This document shows positions 7,498 through 28,329 of a stretch of 33,114 nucleotides of DNA, one piece after another. The stretch is from an uncultured Prevotellaceae bacterium. Its GTDB lineage: Bacteria; Bacteroidota; Bacteroidia; Bacteroidales; Bacteroidaceae. How positions within the stretch are numbered: the stretch's first letter is position 1; the number at the start of each line of letters is the position of its first letter. Under the pieces are notes generated by a model that searched no databases, was not told where the DNA came from, and saw nothing but the letters and a program-made list of their open reading frames with translations. Made by a program: the position numbers and the translations under genes. The stretch covers positions 1 to 33,114 of the forward strand of contig OMSJ01000074.1 of the NCBI GenBank assembly GCA_900313705.1. Direction: 5' to 3'.

Positions 7498-7525
7498 AAG
7501 ACCCCCTACCCCCTCTTTGGGGGAG
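7498..7525. repeat. Half copy of the C/G-rich palindromic element in the tig leader
   Basis: AAGACCCCCTACCCC followed by TCTTTGGGGGAG resembles one terminus of the elements inside lpd, gcvT, lplA and the sulfatase. CCCCCTCTTTGGGGG can form a hairpin in the 5' untranslated region of tig. Confidence 0.6.
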
Positions 7526-13440: not shown

Positions 13441-13477
13441 TGTCCGTCAGAAGCACTTGATTCCCAAACAGCATAAC

Positions 13478-15280: not shown

Positions 15281-16234
15281 ATGAAAAACATCCTTATTAT
15301 TGGCTCAACAGGACAGATTGGTTCTGAGCTGACCATGCACCTTAGAAATCTTTACGGTAACGAGCACGTTGTGGCAGGCTACATCCCTGGCGCAGAGCCG
15401 AAGGGCGAGCTGCTGGAGAGCGGTCCATGTGCCCTTGCCGATGTCGTCAATGCCGAGAGCATTGCGGAGGCAGTGAAGAAGCATAACATCGATACCATCT
15501 ACAACCTTGCGGCTTTGCTCTCCGTCGTGGCGGAGTCGAAGCCCCGTCTGGCTTGGAAGATAGGCATCGACGGTCTATGGAACATCCTGGAGATTGCCCG
15601 CGAGAACAAGTGTGCCGTCTTCACGCCCAGCTCTATCGGCTCGTTTGGACTTGAGACGCCCCACGACATGACGCCGCAGGACACCGTGCAGCGTCCGCGC
15701 ACCATCTATGGTGTGTCGAAGGTGACGACCGAACTGCTCTCCGACTGGTTCTTCCATAAGTACGGTGTCGATACACGCTCCGTCCGCTTCCCGGGCATCA
15801 TCTCCTACGTGACACCTCCAGGCGGCGGCACTACTGACTATGCTGTGGATATCTATTATTACGCTGTTCGTGGTGAGCGCTTTACCTGCCCCATCAAGGC
15901 CGGTACACGCATGGACATGATGTACATGCCCGATGCGCTCCATGCCGCTACGATGCTCATGGAGGCTGACCCAAGTCGCCTTGTCCACCGCAACGGCTTC
16001 AACATCGCTGCCATGAGCTTCGACCCGGAGACCATCTACGCAGCCATCAAGAAGCACAAGCCCGACTTTGAGATGGTCTATGACGTTGACCCGCTGAAGC
16101 AATCCATCGCCGAGTCATGGCCCGACATGATGGACGACAGTTGCGCCCGCCGCGAGTGGGACTGGGAACACAAGTTCGGCCTCGAGGAGATGACGAAGGA
16201 CATGCTCGAGAAATTAACAAAGAAGCTGCTCTAA
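15281..16234 (+). CDS. L-threonine 3-dehydrogenase, short-chain (UDP-galactose-epimerase-like) type
   Basis: 317-residue extended-SDR oxidoreductase. It has the nucleotide-binding motif GSTGQIGSEL (8-17), a PSSIGSFG segment with the active-site Ser, and catalytic Tyr143 and Lys147 in YGVSK. The pattern RFPGIISYVTPPGGGTTDYA and the tail ARREWDWEHKFGL are characteristic of the NAD-dependent SDR threonine dehydrogenases known from other bacteria and animals, rather than of sugar epimerases. It oxidises L-threonine to 2-amino-3-ketobutyrate, the substrate of the adjacent Kbl. The context makes the assignment strong, though a generic NAD-dependent epimerase label is the fallback. Confidence 0.88.
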   Translation: MKNILIIGSTGQIGSELTMHLRNLYGNEHVVAGYIPGAEPKGELLESGPCALADVVNAESIAEAVKKHNIDTIYNLAALLSVVAESKPRLAWKIGIDGLWNILEIARENKCAVFTPSSIGSFGLETPHDMTPQDTVQRPRTIYGVSKVTTELLSDWFFHKYGVDTRSVRFPGIISYVTPPGGGTTDYAVDIYYYAVRGERFTCPIKAGTRMDMMYMPDALHAATMLMEADPSRLVHRNGFNIAAMSFDPETIYAAIKKHKPDFEMVYDVDPLKQSIAESWPDMMDDSCARREWDWEHKFGLEEMTKDMLEKLTKKLL

Positions 16235-16263
16235 GGAGTCATACTAGTAGTATTTTATAGTGG

Positions 16264-16298
16264 AGAGTCCGATGCAAATGCGTCTGGCTCTTTTGTTT
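16264..16298 (+). terminator. Likely terminator of the threonine dehydrogenase gene
   Basis: AGAGTCCGA (16264-16272) pairs with TCTGGCTCT (16283-16291) with one G-T pair and one mismatch, and is followed by TTTGTTT. It lies 30 bp after the stop. Confidence 0.55.
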
Positions 16299-16345
16299 AC
16301 CTGTCCTTTTGCCCTGTTTCTCGTGAATAGGAACCAGAATTCTCG

Positions 16346-16433
16346 CGCCTATTCTATTGCATGTACATGTATGTGCAATTGCACGTACATGTATATGCAA
16401 TTGCACATACATGTACATGCAACGAATTAGGCG
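16346..16433. repeat. Array D1: three 22-bp TGCAnnTACATGTAnnTGCA units forming one large palindrome
   Basis: Units start at 16359, 16381 and 16403, each GCAnnTACATGTAnnTGCA plus two to four bases, exactly 22 bp apart. The whole array (16357-16422) equals its own reverse complement except for the variable bases of the middle unit. Flanks CGCCTATTC and GAATTAGGCG extend the pairing. It lies between convergent tdh and lpd. Confidence 0.9.
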
Positions 16434-16470
16434 AGCTATGTTGGCTGGCGCGACAGGTCGGACAAAGAAA

Positions 16471-16506
16471 ATCCGCGTGCCTCGATGGGTGTCGTAGCAC
16501 GCGGAT
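16471..16506 (-). terminator. Rho-independent terminator of lpd
   Basis: ATCCGCGTGC (16471-16480) pairs perfectly with GCACGCGGAT (16497-16506). On the minus strand the stem is followed by TTTCTTTG. It lies 28 bp after the lpd stop. Confidence 0.85.
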
Positions 16507-16533
16507 AGTGTGGATTAATGCGGGGATGAACCG

Positions 16534-17919
16534 TCAGTTCACTTCAATCAGCACTTCGGAGAGGGTGGGGTGGATGTGGACGGTCTCGCGCAACTGGCGG
16601 AGCGTAGCGCCGAGTGTGATGAAGGCCGTCACCTCCTGCACGATGTCGGCTGCATGTGCGCCGAAGACGTGAGCGCTGAGCAGCTTGCCTTCTTCCGGTT
16701 CGCAGCAGAGCTTGACCATTCCCTCTGTCTCGTTCATCGCCAAAGCCTTGCCGTTGGCACGGTAGAAGCTCTTGTGGCACTCGAAGGGCGTGCCTTGTTC
16801 CTTCAGCTGGTCCTCCGTGGGTCCGACGCAGGCGGCTTCAGGCTCGGTGAAGATGGCAGCAGGCATCACCTCGAAGCGAATCTTGTCCTCAATGCCGAGG
16901 ATGCGGTTCACAACATGTATGCCCTGCATCTCCGCAGCATGAGCCAGCATTTGGCGTCCGTTGACGTCGCCGATGGCAAAGATAGAAGACCCCTCTAAAT
17001 CTCCCCTTAAAGGGGAGACTTTCTGACCCGTGTCCTCTCCCGTTAAGGGGAGGTTTTCTTCGCTTGTTTTCTCCCCCTTTAAGGGGGAGTTAGAGAGGGT
17101 CTTGGCCTTGAAGTGCTCATCGACAGGGATGGTGCCGTTGGGAGCGAGGGCGATGCCTGCTGCTTCGAGGTTCAGGCCCTCTGTGTTGGCCTTGCGACCC
17201 GTTGCTATCAGGATGAAGTCGGCCTCTACGCTCACCTCCTTGCCTTTTTGCTCGAACAGGACAGTCGAGCCGTCGATGCTCTTCACACCAGCTCCCATGT
17301 AGAAGGTGATGCCGCGCTTCTCCAGGAGCTTGCGCAAGCGCTTGGCAATGTCGCTGTCCACCATGGGCAGACACTCCTTGAGGTACTCCACGACGGTCAC
17401 TTCGCTTCCGAACTTCTGGAAGACGCTTGCGAACTCCATGCCGATGACGCCAGCGCCGATGATGCAAAGGCGCTTGGGCAGTTCTTTGAGGGCGAGCAAC
17501 TCGGTGGAAGACCCTACGTTCTGTCTGTCGGCACCCGGGATGGGCAGCATCTTTGCGCTGCTACCTGTGGCGACGATGATGTTAGCCCCTCTCCAAACCT
17601 CCCCCGAAGGGGAGGCTTCAATGGTGCCAGCATCAATGAACTTCGCCTTCTCGCGTACCAAAGTGATGTTGGGATGGGAAAGCAGCGTCTCTACTCCGCC
17701 ACGCAGCGCCTCCACCACTTGCGGCTGACGCTCTACGGCTTCGCCAAAAGTGGCAGAGTGTACGTAGGTCTTCGTCGGGATGCAGCCCACGTTGAGGCAG
17801 GTGCCGCCGACGTTGACGTCCTCGAAGATAACGACCTTCAGTCCGTGCTTCGCTGCATAGACGGCAGCCTTGTAACCGCCAGGGCCGGCACCGATGATGA
17901 TTAAATCAGTTTCTTTCAT
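16534..17919 (-). CDS. lpdA: Dihydrolipoyl dehydrogenase with two in-frame repeat insertions
   Basis: FAD-dependent E3/L-protein that reoxidises dihydrolipoyl GcvH with NAD+. The FAD motif is IIGAGPGGYKAAVYAA (8-23), and the redox disulfide is Cys41/Cys46 in GGTCLNVGCIPTKT. The NAD site is IIGAGVIGMEFASVF, and the second FAD motif AIGDVNGRQMLAHAA is at about 315-329. The active-site His lies in HIHPTLSEV. Two segments are foreign to the family. EASPSGEVWRGA (101-112) precedes the ATGSS motif, and about 39 residues (about 273-311, starting KTLSNSPLKGE and ending SPLRGDLEGS) precede FAIGD. Both coincide exactly with palindromic DNA elements. The catalytic residues are intact. It is the last gene of the gcv cluster, separated from gcvPB by 307 bp. 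Confidence 0.94.
   Translation of the reverse strand: MKETDLIIIGAGPGGYKAAVYAAKHGLKVVIFEDVNVGGTCLNVGCIPTKTYVHSATFGEAVERQPQVVEALRGGVETLLSHPNITLVREKAKFIDAGTIEASPSGEVWRGANIIVATGSSAKMLPIPGADRQNVGSSTELLALKELPKRLCIIGAGVIGMEFASVFQKFGSEVTVVEYLKECLPMVDSDIAKRLRKLLEKRGITFYMGAGVKSIDGSTVLFEQKGKEVSVEADFILIATGRKANTEGLNLEAAGIALAPNGTIPVDEHFKAKTLSNSPLKGEKTSEENLPLTGEDTGQKVSPLRGDLEGSSIFAIGDVNGRQMLAHAAEMQGIHVVNRILGIEDKIRFEVMPAAIFTEPEAACVGPTEDQLKEQGTPFECHKSFYRANGKALAMNETEGMVKLCCEPEEGKLLSAHVFGAHAADIVQEVTAFITLGATLRQLRETVHIHPTLSEVLIEVN
16986..17103 (-). repeat. Palindromic element in frame inside lpd (118 bp)
   Basis: On the coding strand it begins AAGACCCTCTCTAACTCC and ends in the inverted form of that sequence. 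The terminal inverted repeats are about 32 bp, each containing a CCCCTTAAAGGGG palindrome, and a third palindrome lies inside. It is read without stops as KTLSNSPLKGE...LPLTGED...SPLRGDLEGS. Confidence 0.85.
17584..17619 (-). repeat. Second, partial palindromic element in lpd (36 bp)
   Basis: A single terminus containing CCTCCCCCGAAGGGGAGG. It is exactly 12 codons, encoding EASPSGEVWRGA. The core is one base shorter than its relatives and the frame is regained by extra bases near the end. Confidence 0.7.
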
Positions 17920-17934
17920 GGAACATTAAGCATA

Positions 17935-18098
17935 ATGATAATCCACAAAAAGGCTCTATCGAAATAAGTACGTGTACTTGTCGCCATAAGTACGTGTACT
18001 TATTGCCATAACTACGTGTACTTATCGCCATAAGTACGTGTACTTATTTACACCCTTCCCAGAGAGGAGGACAAGAGGCGCTTCTTGTGGATTATCAT
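17935..18098. repeat. Array B: four AAGTACGTGTACTT units inside a 14-bp inverted repeat
   Basis: Four 22-bp units start at 17966, 17988, 18010 and 18032, with linkers GTCGCCAT, ATTGCCAT and ATCGCCAT. They are bracketed by ATGATAATCCACAA (17935-17948) and its perfect reverse complement (18085-18098), so the whole 164-bp block looks like a mobile unit. It lies between gcvPB and lpd, both on the minus strand. Confidence 0.88.
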
Positions 18099-18136
18099 AT
18101 TAATCGTTGAACATCTGTTTAGTAGTTTAGCAGTTA

Positions 18137-18199
18137 AGTAGTTAAGCCAAATGTCTTGGCTGCAAACCTCTAACGGCAGAAGGTATTGGCTTAACTACT
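18137..18199. repeat. 14-bp inverted repeat downstream of gcvPB
   Basis: AGTAGTTAAGCCAA (18137-18150) is the perfect complement of TTGGCTTAACTACT (18186-18199). Next to it is a GCGCGAAAGCGC hairpin (about 18202-18213). Together they may act as the terminator of the gcvT-gcvPB transcript, but there is no strong T run. Confidence 0.6.
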
Positions 18200-18226
18200 C
18201 AGCGCGAAAGCGCATTAACTACTTAA

Positions 18227-19807
18227 CTATTCTGTTTTTGCCTTCCAGTAGGTTGTCACAGGTTGCTTGGCAGCCAGGACGTCGTCCACACGGCCGATTG
18301 GCGTGTTGTGCGGTGCTGTCTTCACCAGTTCGGGGTCTGTCTTGGCTTCCTCCGCAATCTTGTGCATCACGTCGATGAAGGCGTTGATGGTCTCCTTGCT
18401 CTCGTTCTCGGTGGGCTCTATCATGAGGCTCTCATGGAAGAGCAACGGGAAGTAGATGGTGGGAGCGTGATAACCATAGTCGAGCAAGCGCTTGGCCACG
18501 TCCATTGTCGTCACGCCGGTGCTCTTGTCAACGAGGCCGTCGAAGACCACTTCGTGCTTGCACAGGCCCTTGATGGGGAGGAGATAGCTGTCGCGAAGGC
18601 GTTCCTTGATGTAGTTCGCGTTGAGCGTTGCCAAGGGGCCGACCTGCTTGATGTTCTCGCTGCCGAGTGACAGGATGTAGGTGTAAGCCTTCAGCATCAC
18701 GCCGAAGTTGCCGAAGAAGTTGCCGACGCTGCCGAGAGAAGGGTGAGGAGGGAAGAGTGAAGAATCAGAATCAGAGTTACTTTCATTCTTCGTTCTTAAC
18801 TCTTCGTTATTAGCTCCCCAGTCGATGATGAAGCCTTCCCATTCGGTCGGACCGTCTTCGGGGAGGTCGTAGTTCACGACAACCTTTTTGACGCGAGGCG
18901 TCGGGAGGAACTGTTCCAAGCCCTTGCGTACACCGACGGGGCCGCTGCCTGGGCCACCGCCGCCATGAGGCGTGGAGAACGTCTTGTGCAGGTTGATGTG
19001 CATCACGTCGAAGCCCATGTCGCCGGGACGGCATTCGCCGAGCAGGGCGTTGAGGTTCGCGCCGTCGTAGTACATCAGGCCGCCTGCCTTGTGTACCATT
19101 TCGGTAATCTCCAGCACACGCGGCTCGAAGATGCCCAGCGTGTTGGGGTTGGTCATCATCATGGCTGCGATGTTCGGACCTTCTAGTTGAACTAGTCTCT
19201 CTAGGTCTTCTAGGTCAACGGTTCCGTTGGCGTTGCTCTTCACCTCGACGACCTCCAGGCCGCAGACTGCTGCAGAGGCGGGGTTGGTGCCGTGTGCCGA
19301 GTCGGGAATGAGCACCTTTGTGCGGACGTCACCTCGGCTTTCGTGATAAGCGCGGATGACCATCAAGCCAGTCAGCTCGCCGTGTGCGCCGGCACAGGGA
19401 TTCAGCGTGAACTCGCTCAGTCCGGCAAGCTCGGCAAGCGACTCTTGCAGGTTGTAATACACCTCCAGCGCGCCTTGGCAGGTCACGGCGGGTTGCAGGG
19501 GATGCAGTCCGGCGAAAGCCTTCATGCCGGCTATCTCTTCGTTGATGACGGGGTTGTACTTCATCGTGCATGAGCCGAGCGGATAGAAGCCGTCGTTCAC
19601 GCCGAAGTTGTTGTGGCTGAGATTCGTGTAGTGACGCACCACGGTCAGCTCGTCGCACTCGGGCAAGCGGGCTGCTTCCTTGCGGCGAAGAGCCTCGGGA
19701 AGTTCCGCCGTTGTGTGCGTGCGGTCATAGTCCTGCGGAAGGGAGTAACCCTTGCGTCCTTTCTTCGACAACTCGAAGATAAGGTTTCCATATAATGTCC
19801 TGTTCAT
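18227..19807 (-). CDS. gcvPB: Glycine dehydrogenase (decarboxylating) subunit 2, GcvPB
   Basis: PLP-carrying half of the split P-protein. With GcvPA it decarboxylates glycine and passes the aminomethyl group to lipoyl-GcvH. The PLP-binding Lys is Lys275 in MHINLHKTFSTPHGGGGPGSGP, and the family block YPLGSCTMKYNPVINE is at 75-90. About 28 residues (332-359, NNEELRTKNESNSDSDSS...) are low-complexity and interrupt the conserved stretch leading to SVGNFFGNFGV. They match a repeat-like DNA segment (18731-18814). The length of 526 exceeds the usual by about that amount. gcvPA lies 86 bp upstream. Confidence 0.94.
   Translation of the reverse strand: MNRTLYGNLIFELSKKGRKGYSLPQDYDRTHTTAELPEALRRKEAARLPECDELTVVRHYTNLSHNNFGVNDGFYPLGSCTMKYNPVINEEIAGMKAFAGLHPLQPAVTCQGALEVYYNLQESLAELAGLSEFTLNPCAGAHGELTGLMVIRAYHESRGDVRTKVLIPDSAHGTNPASAAVCGLEVVEVKSNANGTVDLEDLERLVQLEGPNIAAMMMTNPNTLGIFEPRVLEITEMVHKAGGLMYYDGANLNALLGECRPGDMGFDVMHINLHKTFSTPHGGGGPGSGPVGVRKGLEQFLPTPRVKKVVVNYDLPEDGPTEWEGFIIDWGANNEELRTKNESNSDSDSSLFPPHPSLGSVGNFFGNFGVMLKAYTYILSLGSENIKQVGPLATLNANYIKERLRDSYLLPIKGLCKHEVVFDGLVDKSTGVTTMDVAKRLLDYGYHAPTIYFPLLFHESLMIEPTENESKETINAFIDVMHKIAEEAKTDPELVKTAPHNTPIGRVDDVLAAKQPVTTYWKAKTE
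18731..18814 (-). repeat. Low-complexity in-frame insertion in gcvPB
   Basis: On the minus strand it contains AACGAAGAGTTAAGAACGAAG and AATGAAAG strings like those found between genes in this window (for example 15208-15237). It encodes a Ser/Asn/Asp-rich stretch without stops. Its exact edges are uncertain. Confidence 0.5.
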
Positions 19808-19820
19808 TGTCTTGATAATT

Positions 19821-19901
19821 AGAAATTGTGAAAATAAGAGAATGTGAAAAGCCTATGGTCTCCCTTTTCTTATTTTCTAAATCTCTTATTTTCTCATTCT
19901 C
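19821..19901. repeat. Inverted A/G-rich and C/T-rich short repeats between gcvPA and gcvPB
   Basis: The left part carries GAAAATAAGAGAATGTGAAAAG. The right part carries CTTTTCTTATTTTC and CTCTTATTTTCTCATTCTCC, largely complementary. The gcvPA stop codon lies in the right arm. Similar AAATAAGAAAATAAG strings occur in the two spacers flanking the four-helix-bundle gene (about 21691-21715 and 22087-22126). Confidence 0.6.
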
Positions 19902-21219
19902 CCATAATTTCGACGAGCTCGTCGATTTCCTCTGTTGAGCGCTGCTCCGTGACGGCCAGCATGAGCGTCTTCTCGCCGACCTGAACGCCAGCGAGGAAGC
20001 CGTTGGCGGTGCATTCGTCGTGGAGCGCTTCGAGGTCTCCCTCGTAATCGACGCAGAACTCATTGAAGAAGGGCTGTCCCGGGAAAGTATCCTTGAACTT
20101 GCCCGTCGCGATGAGTTTGTCGCGGAGACTGTGTGCGCCGGCATAGCTCATCTCTGCCACTTCGCGAAGTCCCTCTTTGCCCATGAGACTGAGGTATATT
20201 GTGACGTAGAGCGCCATGAGGCTCTGGTTGGAACAGATGTTGGAGGTTGCCTTCTGGCGGCGTATGTGCTGCTCGCGAGCCTGCAGCGTCAGGACGAAAG
20301 CCCTTTGGCCGCGATTGTCGAGGGTCTGTCCCACGATGCGTCCCGGCAGCTTTCGCATCAGCTTTTCCGTGCAGGCCATGTAGCCCACGCCAGGGCCTCC
20401 GAAGGTCATGGGAATGCCGAGGCTCTGGCCTTCGCCTACAGCCACGTCGGCTCCCCACTCGGCTGGCGTCTTCAGGATAGCCAGGTCGCTGGGGTTGGCG
20501 TTCACTACGAAGATGCCTTTCTGCTCGTGAAGGGCGTCGGCAATGCCTGTGTAGTCCTCGACGATGCCGTAGTAGTTGGGCTGCTGCACGATGAGTCCTG
20601 CCACGCCGCCCTCAGCAAGTTCCTTGTCGAGAGCCTTGCGGTCGAGGACACCATTGGCGGCAGGCACGAGCTTGATGGGGAAGCCGTGGAAGTGCGCATA
20701 GGTCTCGACGACGCGGCGCACCTTTGGGTCCACCGTCTCGCTCATCAAGACGCAGTTTGCCTTCTTGGCGTTGCCCCAAGCCATCATGGCAGCTTCCGCC
20801 GTAGCGGTTGCGCCGTCGTACATCGAGGCGTTGGCAATGTCCATGCCCGTCAGCTCTGCAATCATCGACTGATACTCGAAGATGTAGTGGAGCGTGCCCT
20901 GCGATATTTCGGCCTGATAAGGCGTGTAGGACGTCAGGAACTCCGAGCGTTGGATGAGGTTCTGCACTACGCTTGGCGCATAGTGGTCGTAGCATCCTGC
21001 ACCGGCAAAGCAAATGAGTTGCTTTGTGCTCTCAGGTGCAGTCAGTTGTTCGAAGAAGAGTCGCAGATCAGTCTCCGAGAGAGCCTCCGGCAGTTCGTAG
21101 TCTCTCTTGAAGCGTGCAGCCTCAGGAATGTCGGCAAAGAGGTCGTGAACCGTCTTCGCGCCGGCAGCCTTCAGCATCTCCTGCAAGTCCTCCTCGGTAT
21201 GTGGAAAGTACTTGTACAT
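19894..21219 (-). CDS. gcvPA: Glycine dehydrogenase (decarboxylating) subunit 1, GcvPA
   Basis: 441-residue N-terminal half of the P-protein, partner of GcvPB in the glycine cleavage complex. It starts MYKYFPHTEEDLQEML, typical of GcvPA. Conserved blocks include CFAGAGCYDHYAPSVV, PYQAEISQGTLHYIFEYQSMI and ANASMYDGATATAEA (about 183-197). Another is GGPGVGYMACTEKLMRKLPGRIVG in the middle. It lacks the PLP lysine, as expected, because this is on GcvPB. It lies between gcvH (73 bp upstream) and gcvPB on the same strand. No glycine riboswitch was seen before it. Confidence 0.94.
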   Translation of the reverse strand: MYKYFPHTEEDLQEMLKAAGAKTVHDLFADIPEAARFKRDYELPEALSETDLRLFFEQLTAPESTKQLICFAGAGCYDHYAPSVVQNLIQRSEFLTSYTPYQAEISQGTLHYIFEYQSMIAELTGMDIANASMYDGATATAEAAMMAWGNAKKANCVLMSETVDPKVRRVVETYAHFHGFPIKLVPAANGVLDRKALDKELAEGGVAGLIVQQPNYYGIVEDYTGIADALHEQKGIFVVNANPSDLAILKTPAEWGADVAVGEGQSLGIPMTFGGPGVGYMACTEKLMRKLPGRIVGQTLDNRGQRAFVLTLQAREQHIRRQKATSNICSNQSLMALYVTIYLSLMGKEGLREVAEMSYAGAHSLRDKLIATGKFKDTFPGQPFFNEFCVDYEGDLEALHDECTANGFLAGVQVGEKTLMLAVTEQRSTEEIDELVEIMGE

Positions 21220-21292
21220 GACGTGATAACTTATTCTATTATTCGTTATGACGTGATAACGTAATGTCGTTATGACGAGACATCATATTGGT

Positions 21293-21673
21293 TTACTCAG
21301 CGCAGAAGGCTTCGTAAGCAGCCTTGTCCATGAGGTTGTCGAGTTCCGAGGGGTCGGAGAGCTGCACCTTGATGATCCAGTTGGCAAAGGCGTCTTCGTT
21401 CAGAAGCTCGGGCTTGTCCTCGAGGGCCTCGTTGACTTCGACAACGGTGCCGCTGACGGGAGAGATGAGGTCGCTTGCTGCCTTGACGCTCTCCACGGCG
21501 CCAAACTCTTCGCCGGCTGTTACTTCGTCGTCAACCTCGGGCATATCGACGTAAACCACATTGCCGAGTGCGTGCTGAGCATAGTCAGAGATACCAATGT
21601 AACCGAATTCGCCTTCAACGCGAATGTACTCGTGTGACTCGCTGTAGCGGAGTCCTTCTTCAAATTTAGCCAT
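21293..21673 (-). CDS. gcvH: Glycine cleavage system H protein
   Basis: 126-residue lipoyl carrier that shuttles the aminomethyl group between the P, T and L proteins. The lipoylated residue is Lys64 in GAVESVKAASDLISPVSG. The N-terminal YSESHEYIRVEGEFGYIGISDYA and C-terminal LNEDAFANWIIKV match the family. The start ATG 21673 gives the standard N-terminus. The likely lipoate ligase for this lysine is encoded at the head of the same gene cluster. Confidence 0.96.
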   Translation of the reverse strand: MAKFEEGLRYSESHEYIRVEGEFGYIGISDYAQHALGNVVYVDMPEVDDEVTAGEEFGAVESVKAASDLISPVSGTVVEVNEALEDKPELLNEDAFANWIIKVQLSDPSELDNLMDKAAYEAFCAE

Positions 21674-21725
21674 AATAGAAAAATGTGAAATTGTGATAAT
21701 AAGAAAATAAGAAAAGGAAGGGTGA

Positions 21726-22088
21726 CTATTCGTCCTTGCTCTCTCTAACTTTCTTAATTATCTTGATTAATGTACCTATAATTATATTTAAGTCGTTTTT
21801 AAGTGAATCGTATTCTTTTTGTCCGATGGTTTCCGATAAGAATAACAAGTCAATCCAGTAGTCAGTCTCACCTGCTTCTTTTAGTGCAATGTTCAGTTTC
21901 ATGGCGAAGTCTGCCTTTGTCTGGGCATATTTGCTTTCTGCGATGTTTGCTCCAATACTTGTCCCAGACCTGTATATCTGTTTAGAGATAACATATTCCT
22001 GTCGCTCTTCACGAAGAAACTTGTGCAACTTGATGATGCGCAAAGCAAAGTTCTTGCTGAGTTCTGCAAGCAGGTTGTTCTTGATCAC
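21726..22088 (-). CDS. Four-helix-bundle protein of the 23S rRNA intervening-sequence (S23/TIGR02436) family
   Basis: 120 residues, mostly helical, with the family signature YVISKQIYRSGTSIGANIAES (about 32-52), then a YAQTKADFAMKLNIALKEAGETDYWIDLL block. Such proteins form pentameric four-helix bundles. They occur alone, within rRNA intervening sequences, and as relatives of the Avd accessory protein of diversity-generating retroelements; no reverse transcriptase is present here. It sits between gcvT (30 bp) and gcvH (52 bp) on the same strand, with repeat-like A-rich spacers on both sides, so it is probably an insertion into the operon with an unrelated role. Confidence 0.88.
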   Translation of the reverse strand: MIKNNLLAELSKNFALRIIKLHKFLREERQEYVISKQIYRSGTSIGANIAESKYAQTKADFAMKLNIALKEAGETDYWIDLLFLSETIGQKEYDSLKNDLNIIIGTLIKIIKKVRESKDE

Positions 22089-22118
22089 TTTTCTTATTTT
22101 CTTATTTTCTACATTTCT

Positions 22119-23264
22119 TCATTTCTTATAGTGTTTATCGTAAAATTTCTTCTTAACCACTTTGCCTTCGAACACTTTCTTGCGGATTTGGACAGAGAGC
22201 GGGGTGTCGAGCTTGGCGTACTCGCTCTTGACGAGGGCCATGCAGACGCTCTTGTCAACGCTGAGGCAATGATAGCCGGTTGTCACTTCGCCCACCTGCT
22301 CGCCTTCCATGTTGAGGACGGGGTAGCCGTGACGGGGGATGGCTTTGTCTGCGAGCTCGATGCCGACGAGCTTCTGGGCAACGCCGTTGGCTTTCTGCTC
22401 AACGAGGGCTTCCTTGCCGATGAACTCAGGCTTGTCGAGCTTGCAGAACATCGACAGACCAGCCATGACGGGGGAGATGTCTGCGCTGAGCTCGTCGCCA
22501 TAAAGTGGCAGACCGACCTCGAAGCGCAAGGTGTCGCGACAACCTAAGCCGCAGGGCTTGCAGCGTCCGCTCTCGATGAGCTTGTCCCAACACTTTTGCG
22601 TGAACTCGTGAGAGCCGTAGATTTCGAAGCCGTCCTCGCCTGTGTAACCCGTGCGAGACACGATGACAGACCCTTCCAAACCTCCCCTTAAAGGGGAGGC
22701 TTCCTTGCATGAGTCCTCTCCCTTTAAGGGAGAGTTAGAGAGGGTCTTAGCCGTGTAGAACTTCAGCTCGCTGCAGGGAATGCCGAGCACCTCTTCAACG
22801 ACTGCTTCGGCTTCGGGACCTTGCACGGCAAGCTGCCCGTACTGGTCGCTCTGATGGTCGAGCTTGATGTCGAAGCCTTCGGTGTGTCCCTTCATCCAAG
22901 CCACATCCTTGTCGATGTTTGCCGCGTTGATGACGAGGAAGAAGTCGTTCTCACCCATCTTATAGACGAGCAGGTCGTCCACCGTTCCACCGTTCGGATA
23001 GAGCATCATACCATAATATATCTGCCCGATGGGTGCTCCAGCCACATCATTCGTGAAGATGTGCTGAACGTAACGCTCAGCGTCGGGACCCGTGATGCGC
23101 ACTTCGCCCATGTGACTCACGTCGAACACGCCGCAATGCTGGCGTACGGCATTGTGCTCGTCGGTGATGTTGGTGTACTGGATGGGCATGATGAAGCCGC
23201 CGAAGGGTGACATGAGTGCGCCCAATGCCACGTGGCGGTCATAGAGACAAGTTTGTTTTTCCAT
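22119..23264 (-). CDS. gcvT: Aminomethyltransferase GcvT with an in-frame repeat insertion
   Basis: T-protein of glycine cleavage: transfers the methylene group from aminomethyl-GcvH to tetrahydrofolate and releases ammonia. Conserved features are GVFDVSHMGEVRITGPDAERYVQ (45-67), GTVDDLLVYK with the catalytic Asp (96/97), FLVINAANIDKD, and SRTGYTGEDGFEIY. About 27 residues (173-199, KTLSNSPLKGED...SPLRGGLEGS) directly before VIVSRTGYTGE are absent from the family and coincide with a palindromic DNA element. Without them the protein has the usual length of about 355-360. The start overlaps the lplA stop by 26 bp, so translational coupling is likely. Confidence 0.95.
   Translation of the reverse strand: MEKQTCLYDRHVALGALMSPFGGFIMPIQYTNITDEHNAVRQHCGVFDVSHMGEVRITGPDAERYVQHIFTNDVAGAPIGQIYYGMMLYPNGGTVDDLLVYKMGENDFFLVINAANIDKDVAWMKGHTEGFDIKLDHQSDQYGQLAVQGPEAEAVVEEVLGIPCSELKFYTAKTLSNSPLKGEDSCKEASPLRGGLEGSVIVSRTGYTGEDGFEIYGSHEFTQKCWDKLIESGRCKPCGLGCRDTLRFEVGLPLYGDELSADISPVMAGLSMFCKLDKPEFIGKEALVEQKANGVAQKLVGIELADKAIPRHGYPVLNMEGEQVGEVTTGYHCLSVDKSVCMALVKSEYAKLDTPLSVQIRKKVFEGKVVKKKFYDKHYKK
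22668..22748 (-). repeat. Palindromic element in frame inside gcvT (81 bp)
   Basis: Coding-strand termini AAGACCCTCTCTAAC and (inverted) GGAAGGGTCT flank two palindromes, CTCTCCCTTAAAGGGAGAG and CCTCCCCTTTAAGGGGAGG. The length is exactly 27 codons. The first 18 bases match those of the lpd copy except for one position. Confidence 0.85.
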
Positions 23265-24033
23265 AGATAAATTCAGGGTTTAGATATGTTTCTCGTTCAA
23301 TGGTTTCGATGTTTCTGACGTCCTCCTCGGTGAGCCGGAGCGTGTCGGAGCAAAGCCTCTCTACTGCGAAGCGCTTGAACTCCTCGATGCTGAGGTCGGT
23401 GTGCTCCTTGAGGAGCGTGATGCGCTGCCGCACGCTTTCTACGCCGTGCTTCGTAAGCTTCTGCTTGGGCGGCGTGATGGCCTGGAGCATGTGCTGCATG
23501 TCGGTGTCGAAGAGCATGGTGCCGTGGACGATGCTTCGCCCGGGCATGTGGTAGAAGGCATTGCCCGATACCTTCCGTCCGCCGATGAGCACGTCGTTGT
23601 TCTCCGTTGATGTCGCGTCCAACCCAAGTTCGCGAAGCATTCCGCAGACCATTTGCATGTACTCGCGGAACGTGGTCTGCACCTCGTCGGAGCACGTGAT
23701 GTAGCTCATCATAACGTTGCTCTTGTCGGCATAGACGCAGCCGCCGCCGCTCTTGCGCCTGTAGAACTCGATGCCGTGCTCACGGCAGTAGTCGAGGTTC
23801 ACCTCGTTCTCGATGACCTGATGCCTGCCGAAGATGACCGTCGGCTCCACTTGCCAGAGGAAGAAGGCCCCCTCCCCGCTCCCCCTTTGGGGGAGTGCTT
23901 TGGAGCGGCGAGGCCGCGGGGATGAGGCACTCCCCCAAAGGGGGAGCGGGGAGGGGGCTGCCGCATATTCCTCCATCGCCAGGTAGAAGGAGAGGCGCCT
24001 TGTCTCGTCTGTGGGTAGAGTCAAGTGGGTCAT
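23239..24033 (-). CDS. Lipoate-protein ligase with an in-frame repeat insertion
   Basis: Attaches lipoate (through lipoyl-AMP) to acceptor lysines, here probably Lys64 of GcvH. The family motif RRKSGGGCVYAD is at 92-103, and the adenylate-contacting Lys154 lies in LIGGRKVSGNAFY. QVEPTVIFGRHQ is the usual N-terminal block. Residues about 26-56 (PSPLPLWGSASSP...GSGEGA) split the conserved MEEY...FFLWQ region and are encoded by a palindromic element. The core without it is about 233 residues, shorter than E. coli LplA and lacking its C-terminal domain. The promoter box lies only 8 bp before the ATG. It overlaps gcvT by 26 bp. Confidence 0.88.
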   Translation of the reverse strand: MTHLTLPTDETRRLSFYLAMEEYAAAPSPLPLWGSASSPRPRRSKALPQRGSGEGAFFLWQVEPTVIFGRHQVIENEVNLDYCREHGIEFYRRKSGGGCVYADKSNVMMSYITCSDEVQTTFREYMQMVCGMLRELGLDATSTENNDVLIGGRKVSGNAFYHMPGRSIVHGTMLFDTDMQHMLQAITPPKQKLTKHGVESVRQRITLLKEHTDLSIEEFKRFAVERLCSDTLRLTEEDVRNIETIERETYLNPEFIYGKTNLSL

Positions 24034-25834
24034 TGCGACTACAAAGATACTTCTTTTTCTTGGAAGGACAAATAATAAGGTGAAAAATTTTTGCTACTCT
24101 TTCGAACTCCTGAATGAACTTCTCTTGGGGAATGCTTTCGCGGTGCATCGCTTTGTACTGCTTCATCAGGCGCAGGAGGTCAGCCCATGTGCCGTCCTTG
24201 AGCGACTCGGCCTTGTGGCGCACACAGTGCAGGTAGAGGGGTTGCATACGGACGCGGTCCACACGTTCGCGAATCTCGTCGTTCTCTGCCATCTTCATTG
24301 CCTCGCTGAGAATGTCGAAGGCCTTCTGCGTAAACTCGTCGCTGTATATCTCGTGGTTCTCACGGATGTAGATGCCGTAGTGTACGTCGGGCTTCACAAG
24401 GCTTTGGCACAAGTCATAATAGTCCTTGATGCGAGGTGCTGCCTTGCCGTAGAAGCCATTGATGAAGATGTTGACCAGCGAATCGACATCCTGCTCAGGG
24501 TTCCATAGGAGCTGGTTCACGGTCCAGGCCTTCATCTCGTCAAACTCAGCTCCGGCGGACTGGTACTGTGCCTCTTCGAAGATGCCGATGGCTTTGTTCT
24601 CGCCAAAGACCTTGATGTTGGGCCCAAGCACTTGGAAGTTAGGCCAGGGAGCCATGTACTGAGCGTAATCGACGATGTAGTCCCAAATGAACAGGTGCGG
24701 TGCAAGTTCAGCCCAGCCTTTCAGGTCGCGCATGAACTTCTCGTTCTGCGGACAGCCGGCATCCAGCGGATGGGCAAAGCAGCACTCTATGCTGCAGAGG
24801 CGGATGACGACGTTCTCGCGGGGCTTGATGCCAGTAGGCGGCTGGCGCGAGTATTGGTAGGCAAAGGTGCCGACGTACTTGTCGGGAAACTCGTCACGCA
24901 CGGCATCGGCCACCTGATTGACGAACCAGACGATGATGCCCGCATGTCCGCCGTACTGCTCTTCGATGGCTTTGCACTGCTCGCACTGGCAGAACAGGAA
25001 GTTGTCGTTCTGCGAGAGGCTGTAGATGCGGTGCTCAGGATGATTGCGCATGTATTGTGCCAGGCGTGTCTTGCACAGCTCCAGCACTTCGGGGTTAGAC
25101 AGGCAGAGCTGCCCGTAGCCGCCGTAGCGCTTGCCGTCGCGCAGGCAGAAGTACTCGGGATGCGTCTCGAAGAACTCTTTCGTTGGGACGAAATGCCCCA
25201 TCGTGTGAGCTCCCCAGTAAGCCTCGATGTTGCCGTATGCGTTGGTGTTGGGGCTCCATTTCATGTTCTCGCGAGTATGGGCGCTCCATTCGGGCACGTT
25301 GGAAGCGACGAAGTAGTTGCTGTAGCGATAGCCGATGAATGGACTTTCGGAGTGGTCGAGCCGAGGCAGTTTCCAGCGTTTGAGCTTAGGCACGATGGTG
25401 CATTTCGGCGTGAGCCAGTGGATGCCAAGCTCGCGCTCGAGGAAGGTGAAGACGCCGTACATCGTGCCGCGCTGCGAACCTCCCCAGATGAGCAGGTCCC
25501 TTCCGACAGTCTTGTAGGTGAAGCTCTCGTCGTCGGCTTTAGGCTGCTTGGCTTCGGTAGTGAGTTGCAGTCTGGCATTGTAGCCCACGACGATGCGAGG
25601 CTCTGCATTCATGTCGTTTGTGATGGGCAGGCGGGCGCCGCTTATCTGTTCGATGTACTGCTGCAGCTCTTTGGCTGCGGTCTGTTCCGAAGTGGAGGCA
25701 CCGGCTGAGATGACTATCTTGTAGTCGCTTTTGCCGTTGCGGAAAAGCCAGTCGGCAGCCTTGGCGCTGACTGTCGGCAACAGCAGACAGACCGTCAGCA
25801 GCAGACAGGAAAAGAAGGGATGAAGGTGTCTCAT
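23780..25834 (-). CDS. Exported DUF4838-type protein with a C-terminal frame running into lplA
   Basis: 684 codons with signal peptide MRHLHPFFSCLLLTVCLLL...SAKA. Residues about 30-150 resemble the alpha-glucuronidase/GH20-type N-terminal domain (TAAKELQQYIEQISGARLPI, then GGSQRGTMYGVFTFLERELGIHWLTP). The centre carries DUF4838-like blocks (HPEYFCLRDGKRYGGYGQLC, then YSLSQNDNFLFCQCEQCKAI). A carbohydrate-related role is inferred; no catalytic residue can be named. The recognisable protein ends near FERVAKIFHL (about 24070). The remaining ~95 codons have no family character and overlap the lplA promoter and first 254 bp in another frame, suggesting loss of the original stop. A TAACTTTA box at 25869-25862 may be its promoter. 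Confidence 0.75.
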   Translation of the reverse strand: MRHLHPFFSCLLLTVCLLLPTVSAKAADWLFRNGKSDYKIVISAGASTSEQTAAKELQQYIEQISGARLPITNDMNAEPRIVVGYNARLQLTTEAKQPKADDESFTYKTVGRDLLIWGGSQRGTMYGVFTFLERELGIHWLTPKCTIVPKLKRWKLPRLDHSESPFIGYRYSNYFVASNVPEWSAHTRENMKWSPNTNAYGNIEAYWGAHTMGHFVPTKEFFETHPEYFCLRDGKRYGGYGQLCLSNPEVLELCKTRLAQYMRNHPEHRIYSLSQNDNFLFCQCEQCKAIEEQYGGHAGIIVWFVNQVADAVRDEFPDKYVGTFAYQYSRQPPTGIKPRENVVIRLCSIECCFAHPLDAGCPQNEKFMRDLKGWAELAPHLFIWDYIVDYAQYMAPWPNFQVLGPNIKVFGENKAIGIFEEAQYQSAGAEFDEMKAWTVNQLLWNPEQDVDSLVNIFINGFYGKAAPRIKDYYDLCQSLVKPDVHYGIYIRENHEIYSDEFTQKAFDILSEAMKMAENDEIRERVDRVRMQPLYLHCVRHKAESLKDGTWADLLRLMKQYKAMHRESIPQEKFIQEFERVAKIFHLIICPSKKKKYLCSRNDPLDSTHRRDKAPLLLPGDGGICGSPLPAPPLGECLIPAASPLQSTPPKGERGGGLLPLASGADGHLRQASGHRERGEPRLLP
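23867..23958 (-). repeat. Palindromic element in frame inside lplA (92 bp, 32-bp perfect inverted repeats)
   Basis: GCCCCCTCCCCGCTCC followed by CCCTTTGGGGGAGTGC (23867-23898) recurs perfectly inverted at 23927-23958. The 28-bp centre differs from the lpd and gcvT copies. It has the same architecture but is a different subfamily (CCCTTTGGG core instead of CCTTAAAGG). Confidence 0.9.
24042..24072 (-). promoter_or_regulatory. Promoter of the lplA-gcv cluster
   Basis: On the minus strand, TTTG (24072-24069), a 19-bp gap, then TATCTTTG (24049-24042) match the consensus fully. The ATG (24033) follows 8 bp after the box, so the transcript would be leaderless or nearly so. The promoter lies inside the DUF4838 open frame. 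Confidence 0.78.
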
Positions 25835-25899
25835 AGCTGTTGTTAGTTAGTGTTTGCGCCGTAAAGTTACGACTTTTATCGTAAAACTCAAAATAAAAA

Positions 25900-25930
25900 G
25901 CAGGCTAATAGCTTTTGGCCATTAGCCTGC
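25900..25930 (-). terminator. Terminator-like hairpin upstream of the DUF4838 gene
   Basis: GCAGGCTAAT (25900-25909) pairs perfectly with ATTAGCCTGC (25921-25930). On the minus strand it is followed by TTTTTATTTT. It would end a transcript coming from the decayed small gene at 26014-26093. It closely resembles the tRNA terminator at 26190-26217. Confidence 0.7.
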
Positions 25931-26013
25931 CTCGTGTATCTGGAGCCCTTTAGCGTCCGCTTAACTGCTGACAGCCAAACGAATAAATGCTCCTGGCTTC
26001 CCCAGAGTAGAAA

Positions 26014-26093
26014 CTAATCTTCCCAGTTGTCTTCCCATAGGCTGCGTTCTTTCACGCGGCCTTCTGTGTCGCCCGCGCCTCCCCTATGGAAAA
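26014..26093 (-). pseudogene. Remnant of a small protein gene (C-terminal part only)
   Basis: The minus-strand frame ending in TAG at 26014-26016 encodes HRGGAGDTEGRVKERSLWED then NWED. This matches the Gly/Asp-rich middle and R-S-[IL]-W-acidic ending of the intact 54-residue protein at 5870-6034. Upstream the frame runs into array C, meets a TAA there and has no ATG, so the 5' half is missing, apparently replaced by the array. Confidence 0.6.
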
Positions 26094-26181
26094 AAGTACG
26101 TGTACTTGTCGCCAGAAGTACGTGTACTTATTGCCGGAAGTACGTGTACTTATCCCCATAAGTACGTGTACTTATCTGACC
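26094..26181. repeat. Array C: four AAGTACGTGTACTT units
   Basis: Units start at 26094, 26116, 26138 and 26160, each 22 bp. The linkers GTCGCCAG, ATTGCCGG and ATCCCCAT follow the same order as in array B (GTCGCCAT, ATTGCCAT, ATCGCCAT), so arrays B and C are copies of one four-unit module. It lies between the small-gene remnant and the tRNA-Leu terminator. Confidence 0.92.
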
Positions 26182-26189
26182 CATAAAAA

Positions 26190-26217
26190 AGGCTAACAGC
26201 TTCTCAGCCATTAGCCT
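26190..26217 (-). terminator. Terminator of tRNA-Leu
   Basis: AGGCTAA (26190-26196) pairs with TTAGCCT (26211-26217). On the minus strand the stem is followed by a TTTTTT run. It lies 7 bp after the tRNA 3' end. Confidence 0.75.
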
Positions 26218-26224
26218 ATCTCCG

Positions 26225-26306
26225 TACTCCGAGCCGGGGTCGAACCGGCACAGGTTTCCCTATCGGTGTTTGAGACCGACGCGTCTACCGATTCCGCCAT
26301 CGGAGC
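26225..26306 (-). tRNA. tRNA-Leu (anticodon CAA)
   Basis: 82 nt on the minus strand. The acceptor stem is GCTCCGA/TCGGAGT (first pair G-U). The D arm contains AATCGGTAGACGC. The anticodon stem TCGGT/ACCGA encloses the loop CTCAAAC, giving anticodon CAA, which reads UUG. A short variable arm and the T arm GCCGG-TTCGACC-CCGGC follow. The class II shape with a long variable region fits leucine. CCA is not encoded. A minus-strand TACCTTTG box at 26326-26319 is the likely promoter. Confidence 0.93.
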
Positions 26307-26318
26307 TTAAGACGGGTG

Positions 26319-26326
26319 CAAAGGTA
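26319..26326 (-). promoter_or_regulatory. -7 promoter box of tRNA-Leu
   Basis: Minus-strand TACCTTTG ends 12 bp before the mature 5' end. No clear -33 element was found because the region upstream is an AAAAGTG repeat. Confidence 0.55.
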
Positions 26327-26331
26327 CAACA

Positions 26332-26425
26332 AAAAGTGAAAAGTGAAAAGTGAAAAGTGAAAAATTATTGGGTTTAGTGCCCTTTTTGTGCTTTTTCTCT
26401 AAACTCTAAACTCTAAACTCTAAAC
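26332..26425. repeat. Two 7-bp tandem repeats between tRNA-Leu and the sulfatase gene
   Basis: AAAAGTG is repeated about four times (26333-26361) and CTCTAAA about three times (26397-26424). No coding sequence was seen. Confidence 0.8.
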
Positions 26426-26431
26426 TTTTTA

Positions 26432-26439
26432 TAAATTTG
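26432..26439 (+). promoter_or_regulatory. -7 promoter box of the sulfatase gene
   Basis: TAAATTTG matches TAnnTTTG. The ATG at 26460 is 20 bp downstream. No TTTG was found at -33, where the CTCTAAA repeat lies. Confidence 0.5.
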
Positions 26440-26459
26440 TGCGTACAAAACCATGAATC

Positions 26460-28115
26460 ATGAAGCTTCCCCTCTCCCTGTTCGGCATGTTGCCGCTCTC
26501 CGTTTTCGCTAAGACATCATACCATAATATTATATATATAATGTGTGACGACATGGGCTACGGCGATTTGGGCTGCTATGGTCAGCAGCTCATCCAGACG
26601 CCCTGCATCGACCGCATGGCTGCGGAAGGGATGCGCTTCACCGATGCCTATGCCGGATGTCCGGTCAGCGCGCCGAGTCGCTGCTCGTTCATGACGGGGC
26701 AGCACACAGGTCACGCCAAGATACGTGGCAACCGCGAGTACTGGGGGCGCTCGGTGCTCAGGCAGAACATGTTCGGGGAGAATGACGACTACTACGTCAT
26801 CGGACAGGAACCTTACGACATGACGCACCCCATCATCCCCGAGCTCTTCAAGGCCAAGGGCTACCGGACCGGCATGTTCGGCAAGTGGGCCGGAGGCTAC
26901 TGGAACTTCGACTACCCCGACACCTATGCCCGCCTGCCCGACGGCAACACGGACACCAGCCGGAGCCGCGAAAGTTCGTCGTGTTCCCTGCCCAACCTCA
27001 GGGGCATCGACTGCTTCTATGGTCCTGTCTGTCAGTTTCAGGCACACACGTACTATCCCAACTTCCTGAACCGTTACGACCCCGAAGGCCGAGGCGACAA
27101 GCATCTGGTGGCAGAAGTCTTGGAAGAGAACATTAAGTATTCTGGCGTGAATTCTGGCAGCACGGATTATGAAAAGCGCCCTCAATACTCAGCCGACCTC
27201 ATCCATCGCTATGCACTCGAATGGCTCGACCGCCAGACGAAGGATGAGCCTTTCCTTGGCATCTTCACCTATACCCTCCCTCATGCCGAGCTCTGGCAAC
27301 CCAATGACTCGATTGTCGAGCACTACCATCGGCTCTTCCCTGCCGAGGAGGAACGCTCGTATAGGACTGATCCCTGGAGCTGGTACTATGGCGGCAACGA
27401 CAAACATGCGCAGTTTGCGGCGATGATTACGCGCTTGGATGCTTACGTTGGTGAGATACTGGAGAAGCTCAAAGCCAAGGGACTCGACAAGAACACCCTC
27501 GTCATCTTCACCAGCGACAACGGCCCGCACGAAGAGGGTGGGGCAGACCCGGCTTTCTTCGGACGTGACGGCAAGTTGCGCGGCATCAAGCGAAGCACCT
27601 ACGAAGGCGGCATCCGCATCCCCTTCATCTGCTGGGGAGCAGGCATCCCACGAGGCACAGTCAGCCATCATCAGCTTGCCTTCTACGACCTCATGCCCAC
27701 CTTCATGGAGTACAGCGGCGCGTTCACGAAGAGGGAGATAGCAGCGCACAGCCTCCAGACCCTCTCTGACTCCCCCTTAAAGGGCGAGAACTCCCTCCCT
27801 TTAAGGGAGGGTAGGGAAGGGTCTTTTGATGGCATCTCCTTCTGCCCAACCATGCTCGGTAAGGATAGGAAACAAAAGAAACACGAGTTCCTTTACTGGG
27901 AGATGAGCGACGGCGGCACACAGGTCATCGGCGTAAGGCAGGGCGACTGGAAGCTTGTCGTCAGCCAGGGCAAGACGTTCCTCTACGACCTCAAGACCGA
28001 CATCCATGAGGACAACGACCTCAAGGACAAGTATCCCGACAAGCTTGCCGAACTCATCGGCATCGTTCATCGGGAACACACCGACAGCCCGCTCTTCCCC
28101 ATCACCTTGCCATAG
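26460..28115 (+). CDS. Exported Ser-type sulfatase with an in-frame repeat insertion
   Basis: Arylsulfatase-family hydrolase, 551 residues, with signal peptide MKLPLSLFGMLPLSVFA, acting in the periplasm or at the surface on sulfated glycans or similar. Metal site CDDMGYGDLGCYG (29-41). The active-site motif is SAPSRCSFMTG with Ser70, so formylglycine would be made by an anaerobic sulfatase-maturating enzyme, not seen here. FTSDNGPHEEGG and KWAGGYWNFDY are further family blocks. Residues about 433-456 (TLSDSPLKGENSLPLREGREGS) are encoded by a palindromic element near the C-terminal subdomain. The reading frame continues to a normal end. A partner sulfatase-PUL gene is not in the window; the nearby DUF4838 and GH97 genes suggest glycan use. 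Confidence 0.9.
   Translation: MKLPLSLFGMLPLSVFAKTSYHNIIYIMCDDMGYGDLGCYGQQLIQTPCIDRMAAEGMRFTDAYAGCPVSAPSRCSFMTGQHTGHAKIRGNREYWGRSVLRQNMFGENDDYYVIGQEPYDMTHPIIPELFKAKGYRTGMFGKWAGGYWNFDYPDTYARLPDGNTDTSRSRESSSCSLPNLRGIDCFYGPVCQFQAHTYYPNFLNRYDPEGRGDKHLVAEVLEENIKYSGVNSGSTDYEKRPQYSADLIHRYALEWLDRQTKDEPFLGIFTYTLPHAELWQPNDSIVEHYHRLFPAEEERSYRTDPWSWYYGGNDKHAQFAAMITRLDAYVGEILEKLKAKGLDKNTLVIFTSDNGPHEEGGADPAFFGRDGKLRGIKRSTYEGGIRIPFICWGAGIPRGTVSHHQLAFYDLMPTFMEYSGAFTKREIAAHSLQTLSDSPLKGENSLPLREGREGSFDGISFCPTMLGKDRKQKKHEFLYWEMSDGGTQVIGVRQGDWKLVVSQGKTFLYDLKTDIHEDNDLKDKYPDKLAELIGIVHREHTDSPLFPITLP
27757..27825 (+). repeat. Palindromic element in frame inside the sulfatase gene (69 bp)
   Basis: Starts AGACCCTCTCTGACTCCC and ends AGGGAAGGGTCTT, with two palindromes (CCCTTAAAGGG and CTCCCTTTAAGGGAG). 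Exactly 23 codons long, in the same orientation and frame relative to the gene as the lpd and gcvT copies. Confidence 0.85.
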
Positions 28116-28169
28116 AGTTCGAAAGCTGCCGACACGTTGTGCCATGGAATTAGCTTAGCCTAATCCTTT

Positions 28170-28235
28170 GCATTTACATGTATGTGCAATTGCAGCTACA
28201 TGTAAATGCAATTGCACATACATGTAGCTGCAAAG
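28170..28235. repeat. Array D2: three 22-bp TGCAnnTACATGTAnnTGCA units
   Basis: Units start at 28170, 28192 and 28214. The variable dinucleotides on unit arms are TT/TG, GC/AA and CA/GC; each has a complement in another unit (TT-AA, TG-CA, GC-GC), so pairing between units is possible. Flanks TTAGCCTAATCCTTTGCA and TGCAAAGAACTAGCTAAGG also pair. It lies between the convergent sulfatase and GH97 genes. Confidence 0.9.
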
Positions 28236-28248
28236 AACTAGCTAAGGC

Positions 28249-28282
28249 AAAGGCGGGAACACCAAATGATGTCCCCGCCTTT
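28249..28282 (+). terminator. Terminator downstream of the sulfatase gene
   Basis: AAAGGCGGG (28249-28257) pairs perfectly with CCCGCCTTT (28274-28282), followed by CTTTCCTTT. It lies just 3' of array D2. Confidence 0.8.
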
Positions 28283-28329
28283 CTTTCCTTTAATCTTTAA
28301 TCCCTAATCTTTAATCCCAGATTAGGAAG

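Follow-up and report, generated by a model that had tools for sequence, protein, structure and literature searches.

We analyzed a 33,114-nt contig (OMSJ01000074.1 of GenBank assembly GCA_900313705.1; here, the window) from an uncultured Prevotellaceae bacterium and found that it carries a family of ~80-base palindromic repeats that are read in frame within protein-coding genes. The window is contig C126 of its own genome (G000; 2.83 Mb, 80.5% complete, 185 contigs). The existence of this coding palindrome family is confirmed. We consider it probable that the family is a selfish, non-autonomous element, similar to miniature inverted-repeat transposable elements (MITEs) and to the hairpin-forming doublets of repetitive extragenic palindromic (REP) sequences (REPINs), that has spread within genomes and lives in enzyme loops. 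A first-pass annotation of the window had proposed a protein-invading repeat family in Bacteroidales resembling the Rickettsia palindromic elements (RPEs); the many copies, the many empty orthologous sites, and the patchy occurrence in the genus bear this proposal out.

A search of the genome with a covariance model of the main family (R1) recovered at least 148 strand-rows. Merging of the rows of both strands by hand gave at least 73 places at ≥44.6 bits, with 22 weaker rows left out. These counts are lower bounds, since 150 of the 1,323 first-look candidates were scored; the further genomic copies expected from an inverted-repeat profile search of the whole genome are thus present. The reading frame was judged from the codon usage of the 150 nt on each side of a copy, with the element itself left out of consideration. 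The flanks form one open frame at 52 of the 73 places, shift frame on one strand at 4, and lie on opposite strands at 3; the remainder have one coding flank (9 places) or none (5 places). Among the 56 copies with coding flanks on one strand, 52 are in frame and stop-free (expected, 1 in 3; P = 1e-20). The test is conservative, as it omits the copies at C93:8630 (RlmI; in frame by comparison with orthologues) and C141:517. In 100 loci from GTDB records, 104 more places were classified without dereplication of the orthologous repeats that they include: 62 keep the frame, 1 keeps it but contains stops, 2 are shifted, 3 have flanks on opposite strands, 21 have one coding flank, 10 have none, and 5 lie at locus edges.

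When 4,000 positions were drawn at random from the same G000 loci, 54.7% were flanked by coding sequence on each side, compared with 52 of 73 for the elements (P = 0.005); genes are therefore not avoided by the family. The core length is 2 mod 3 at 55 of the 73 places (68, 74, 77, 80, 83, 89, 92 nt, etc.), so that a single additional base rounds the core up to complete codons. On average, 2.0 of the six frames through an element are open, and all 52 coherent copies use an open one. There is also an orientation bias, with 42 copies in G000 read on the strand that gives TLSNSPLKGE and 10 on the other (P = 9e-6).

The core of the main family consists of two non-identical inverted arms separated by a short variable spacer, with AGACCC at one end and GGGTCT at the other. 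Each arm contains a CTCCCTTAAAGGGAG-type hairpin, and the arms are conserved across the family (alignment A1). The end profile over 177 copies shows AGACC and GGTCT at opposite ends, i.e., the terminal inverted repeats of MITEs. The defining feature of REPINs (two inverted REP-like units able to form hairpins) is likewise present, on the basis of alignment A1 and the fold of one copy (the gcvT copy; z = -3.8 as DNA).

The first-pass annotation had grouped similar elements in lpd, gcvT, lplA, and the sulfatase gene (Table 1). Three of these (lpd, gcvT, and sulfatase) belong to one family by R1, and the lplA element belongs to a second family. The three copies share, as had been noted, a stop-free frame and a peptide, [KQ]TLS[ND]SPLKGE...GS. 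Their lengths had been put at 118, 81, and 69 nt; the bounded cores measure 116, 80, and 68 nt, all 2 mod 3, and what holds of the earlier remark on multiples of three is that the core plus one base is in frame. The additional lpd segment does contain repeat sequence, as a single arm without a full R1 match, and the half copy reported in the tig leader was also recognized as a single arm. The second family has the same plan as the main one and accounts for 36 strand-rows in its own genome; at 12 places that were read, both flanks are coding with the same strand and phase in 5 cases at the codon-usage threshold and in 7 without it. An open reading frame (ORF) upstream of lplA (23780-25834, minus strand) enters lplA by ~250 nt in another frame, across the second-family element. 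As for known RNA families, a single tRNA scored above the gathering threshold in 16000-28500, and this candidate explanation was rejected.

Table 1. Repeat elements and host genes in the window
Feature	Positions	Strand	Details
Main-family element inside lpd	16987..17102	-	116 nt; R1 84.2 bits, E 1.3e-20; in frame; peptide KTLSNSPLKGEKTSEENLPLTGEDTGQKVSPLRGDLEGS
Main-family element inside gcvT	22668..22747	-	80 nt; R1 106.4 bits, E 3.8e-27; peptide KTLSNSPLKGEDSCKEASPLRGGLEGS
Main-family element inside sulfatase gene	27757..27824	+	68 nt; R1 75.3 bits, E 5.5e-18; peptide QTLSDSPLKGENSLPLREGREGS
Second-family element (GCCCCCTCCCC..GGGGAGGGGGC), 5' part of lplA	23867..23958	-	Own copies elsewhere in the genome
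Single arm (half element) in lpd open frame	17584..17619	-	Repeat detection (17584-17612) and reading by eye; no full R1 match
Single arm AGACCCCCTACCCCCTCTTTGGGGGAG upstream of tig	7499..7525	+	Read by eye
Host lpd (dihydrolipoyl dehydrogenase)	16534..17919	-	ORF; NCBIfam TIGR01350, 414.1 bits, above cut-off of 408.8
Host gcvT (aminomethyltransferase)	22119..23264	-	ORF; NF001567 above cut-off, single stretch 2-379 spans the insert; PDB 1yx2 aligned across the insert
Host lplA (lipoate-protein ligase)	23239..24033	-	ORF; NCBIfam TIGR00545, 230 bits, below cut-off of 280
Host sulfatase gene	26460..28115	+	ORF; NCBIfam NF010322, 116 bits, below its cut-off

The hosts are diverse and include dozens of conserved enzymes. 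An NCBIfam scan covered 19 host proteins, including 18 main-family hosts, of which 10 scored over the curated cut-off (IleS, AlaS, FolC, MetH, UvrA, RmlD, Lpd, GcvT, MurB, and RlmD). The best names under the cut-off were LeuS (partial), DEAD-box helicase, AroE, LplA, sulfatase, ABC ATPase, rhamnulokinase, TrpF, and RlmI. The MetH gene holds two main-family copies (C34:3876 and C34:5812), and further hosts recognized from sequence are presumably SufS, YidC, Maf, and UvrD/PcrA. The host flanks are under strong purifying selection (dN/dS, the ratio of nonsynonymous to synonymous substitution, is 0.085 over 102 pairs).

Alignment of the host proteins with orthologues was possible for 35 of the 71 hosts with open context (130 host-genome pairs), and most relatives proved to lack the element. 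Under a loose labeling rule (another insert being ≥9 extra residues), 101 pairs have short loops, 11 carry the main family, and 18 carry another insert; the 11 main-family labels include an apparently decayed copy (FolC in G005), a member of another family (IleS in G036), and a copy beside the site (C118 in G036). At 12 of the 35 loops, a different insert occupies the site in another species. Most compared relatives being without the segments, we rejected the idea that these are ancestral protein parts. Among the orthologues of the genus and the solved GcvT and IleS homologues, neither ancestral segments nor a lack of further copies was encountered, because copies are numerous, many sites are without the element, and the distribution is patchy.

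With the element set aside, 33 of the 35 hosts have fewer residues between the flanks than even their shortest orthologue does (median, 8 aa; the count includes IleS, whose three relatives all have filled loops). The element thus occupies the position of a native loop, and native residues are missing where it sits (e.g., ALGGEG in LeuS, IRDGK in AroE, and QPYIDA... in MetH). Plain insertion, as originally suggested, therefore gives way to an event that, judging from these alignments, looks like replacement of the native loop. The relatives are diverged, and later loss of native residues could also explain the missing loop residues. For the window copies, the lpd site has 2 to 10 extra residues in 12 relatives, except for 28 in G003; the gcvT site is short or otherwise filled; the lplA site has short native residues in most relatives and other inserts in G036 and G020; and the sulfatase site has a short loop in G008 and another repeat in G052. 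When GcvT and IleS are compared with solved homologues, the insert aligns opposite a shorter stretch. Removal of the segment at the RNA level is disfavored because the frame and the stop-free reading are kept and native residues are fewer.

The IleS loop was surveyed across the genus (54 of 61 genomes matched, 50 loci read, 45 parsed). The parsed loci have stretches of 17 to 48 residues; the main family fills the loop in G000, G005, and G027, another palindromic family fills it in G036 and G053, and short repeat arrays were seen by eye in several others. Simple-repeat peptide loops (NGQWSMVNGQ, NCKSSNCK) occur at G000 element sites in RmlD (L203) and AlaS (L210) of G005 and in Lpd (L165) of G016. 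In UvrA of G000 (C106:14463, L104), two opposite arms flank a native-like UvrA segment, as if arms could enter separately.

The main family was detected in at least 11 of 61 genomes of the genus (E, 1e-12), with 68, 46, 41, 32, 22, 18, 9, 7, 4, 3, and 1 strand-rows in the 11 carriers. At least 9 of 201 genomes in a family-level sample carry it, i.e., 4 in the genus and 5 outside; the latter have between 2 and 4 strand-rows apiece, with a best score of 82 bits. In both searches the filters were stricter than for the own genome and the candidates were capped, and the counts are therefore lower bounds. In a pattern scan of GTDB genomes, all 80 of the matches listed were Bacteroidales by title, and the named sources were ruminants.

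Copies shared between species are more alike than their surroundings. From 48 site pairs, we removed 16 in which both flanks were not measurable and 12 site repeats and added 6 from another comparison, which gave 26 hand-picked pairs, one per site. Flanks were <90% identical in 22 of these pairs; the element was ≥95% identical in 15 of the 22 and <85% identical in 3, and it exceeded the flanks in 19 (medians, 0.969 versus 0.829). Element and flank identities showed no clear correlation (rho = 0.31, P = 0.13), and in 19 pairs the identity drops to a background of 0.8 within a few bases of the element (2 of these pairs have one misaligned flank, so that the background is somewhat lowered). Over eight shared pairs (seven sites), the proportions of synonymous (pS) and nonsynonymous (pN) differences are 0.098 and 0.046 in the elements and 0.569 and 0.048 in the flanks; four-fold sites among the six compared genomes are 0.46 to 0.65 identical. 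The IleS element is identical at 72 of 72 positions in G000, G005, and G027, and the element of C166 matches that of L330 at 111 of 111, including a spacer common to no G000 paralogue. In 12 of 17 cases (IleS counted twice), none of the G000 paralogues found was as close as the orthologue. Such near-identity of shared copies between species whose synonymous sites have diverged so far is a puzzle, which may be explained by lateral site-specific spread, parallel re-entry, or locus-limited constraint.

Vertical inheritance with very strong nucleotide constraint or locus-limited conversion, the hairpin perhaps acting in DNA or mRNA, is an explanation that we keep as a tentative possibility. The conservation of the arms across the family favors it, as does tree topology, which is compatible with vertical descent for both FolC and IleS; because of this fit, FolC was dropped as proof of lateral transfer. 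However, G000 paralogues of the same length have a mean identity of 0.82 over 275 pairs, which indicates that the sites can vary; the unshared spacer is frozen too; and C145, C47, and C66 hold different elements at orthologous sites despite a measurable flank that is ~85 to 89% identical. Homing-like, site-specific spread, in which a given allele of the element, leaving its flanks behind, reaches the corresponding loop of another species in addition to entering new genes, strikes us as unlikely, if worth pursuing. The excess of element over flank identity, the perfect matches at IleS and C166/L330, the lack of a clear identity tail into the flanks, the closeness of orthologues relative to paralogues, and the divergence at four-fold sites all argue for it. 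The trees at FolC and IleS stand against it, as do the 16 pairs left out above (element identity, 0.52 to 0.94, none ≥95%, some with different elements); moreover, neither a nuclease nor a vector was seen, nor a strain-level full/empty pair. A fuller version, i.e., protein-embedded homing elements that propagate from one species to the corresponding enzyme loop of another without flanks, displace the loop or older element already there, and have become codon-phased such that essential genes are where they live, with loops serving as sockets refilled by competing families, appears rather improbable. Ordinary variable or ancestral loops that merely look repetitive can hardly be credited: loop length does vary at these sites in the genus, but near-identical DNA recurs across unrelated genes in either orientation, as well as outside genes.

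The search for a mobilizer covered Y1 transposases (PF01797), i.e., the IS200-type and REP-associated tyrosine transposase (RAYT) class, in the own genome and the 61 genomes. Strong Y1_Tnp genes (E < 1e-10) occur in 4 of 11 carriers versus 3 of 50 other genomes (Fisher P = 0.016, uncorrected for relatedness), and the strong proteins of G000, G013, and G027 are 60 to 73% identical. These data, together with the two inverted REP-like arms, each with its hairpin, are consistent with a REPIN-type family mobilized in trans by a RAYT-like Y1 transposase, a reading that we nevertheless find doubtful. With a looser cut-off (E, 0.001), the excess becomes 6 of 11 versus 17 of 50 (P = 0.30); G053 has a weak match only; the elements have no GTAG/CGTC tag; and the G000 transposase gene (L061 1240-2040, contig C119) is flanked by its own repeat, GCCCTGAAAGGGC. 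A single lplA-type arm lies ~190 nt from the same gene. The earlier suggestion of mobility through a transposase encoded elsewhere is thus left with the over-representation of Y1 genes in carriers, and linkage to the element is lacking. Because Y1 genes have no adjoining family arms and two element-rich genomes gave no match, no mobilizer was assigned.

Selfish spread within genomes remains our preferred reading. On the basis of anatomy and comparison, we suggest that a selfish, non-autonomous element made of two inverted arms with their own hairpins (ends, AGACCC..GGGTCT) has been multiplied, within the genomes of a genus that its record titles place among rumen Bacteroidaceae/Prevotellaceae, by some enzyme, possibly a Y1 (RAYT-like) transposase. 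Entry would replace a few target codons, and selection would spare the copies that restore the frame, are read in a stop-free frame, and fall in a tolerant loop. The family may thereby have adopted codon-phased lengths (core plus one base = 3n) that allow life in genes, and its peptide would be translated and merely tolerated. At the core edges, position -1 favors A/C and position +1 favors T/G, which are complementary rather than equal; target residues appear lost.

Several observations weigh against this reading. Orthologous copies are too conserved for a vertically inherited neutral passenger, and 4 of the 56 G000 copies with coding flanks on one strand disrupt the frame. No target-site duplication was seen in the end profile, and no family arms were found by pattern within ~1.5 kb of any of the seven strong Y1 loci. 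The element-rich genomes G005 and G020 (89% and 62% complete, respectively) gave no Y1 match, and searches of viral contigs, plasmids, and phages for the element returned none. Finally, nearly all of the genomes read are metagenome-assembled genomes by title or assembly.

The window contains other repeats. Arrays of a 22-nt palindromic unit (ATAAGTACGTGTACTTATCGCC) lie at 13468-13603, 17934-18091, and 26062-26197 and recall minisatellite MITEs. Two palindromic arrays of 22-nt units (TTGCA..TGTACATG), which are 87% identical, lie at 16346-16433 beside lpd and at 28158-28241 beside the sulfatase gene. Inverted arrays of 7-nt units (TTAGAGG/CCTCTAA) face each other across 31 nt at 8935-9135, between tig and the next gene, which we take to be clpP from its sequence. 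Arrays of similar short units also occur inside the IleS loops of other species.

The family amounts to another natural experiment in which selfish DNA resides within proteins; it is independent of the first, heavy, and set in gut anaerobes instead of an intracellular parasite. It marks where conserved enzymes tolerate 20 to 40 extra residues, and full, empty, and otherwise filled loops can be compared in many pairs of species.

The RPEs, reportedly described by Ogata et al. in 2000 and 2002, are the closest precedent in kind, and their characteristic feature, a palindrome in frame in unrelated protein genes, is found here (in 52 of the 56 copies with coding flanks on one strand, and with NCBIfam names for 18 hosts). 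According to the accessible part of PMC10969869, RPEs are palindromic repeats of ~150 bp that lie in frame in many unrelated protein genes and are read as extra peptide; by that description, the present family differs in belonging to an unrelated lineage and in being shorter (mostly 68 to 92 nt). In addition, most copies here lie in genes (52 of 73, conservatively) and take the place of loops, and several families share a single loop. REP dimers of the GTAG/CGTC type, as far as the available text of PMC3733652 describes them, encode 20 to 30 aa within ORFs such as uvrA, helicases, and tRNA synthetases, most often in O. terrae and R. conorii, with one at about the same site in recB of two Xanthomonas species. 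The present family resembles them in being coding, in lying within ORFs, and in its hosts (including uvrA and tRNA synthetases). Most REPs lie between genes (PMC3733652), whereas the present family does not avoid genes and has no GTAG or CGTC end tag (177 copies). The REPIN/RAYT systems are similar in their inverted REP doublets, which can fold into hairpins and occur in many copies per genome (PMC3116915 and PMC6006769, in the portions available); here, however, no linked RAYT was found at the seven strong Y1 loci, and copies lie mostly within genes. The BrickBuilt MITEs of Porphyromonas gingivalis are also short, non-autonomous inverted-repeat elements of Bacteroidales, but they contain a minisatellite and, from the accessible part of PMC4596501, are closer to the window's 22-nt arrays than to the main family. 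No description of protein-coding palindromes in Bacteroidales was found in the literature searched, in which subscription papers were mostly outside reach, and the suggestion that the family is undescribed still stands as a possibility. As a kind, the family is known (RPEs and intragenic REP dimers), and it is an extreme form of that kind. It is new in degree and detail, i.e., in the majority of copies lying in genes, the codon-phased length, the loop replacement, the several families per loop, and the near-identical orthologous copies.

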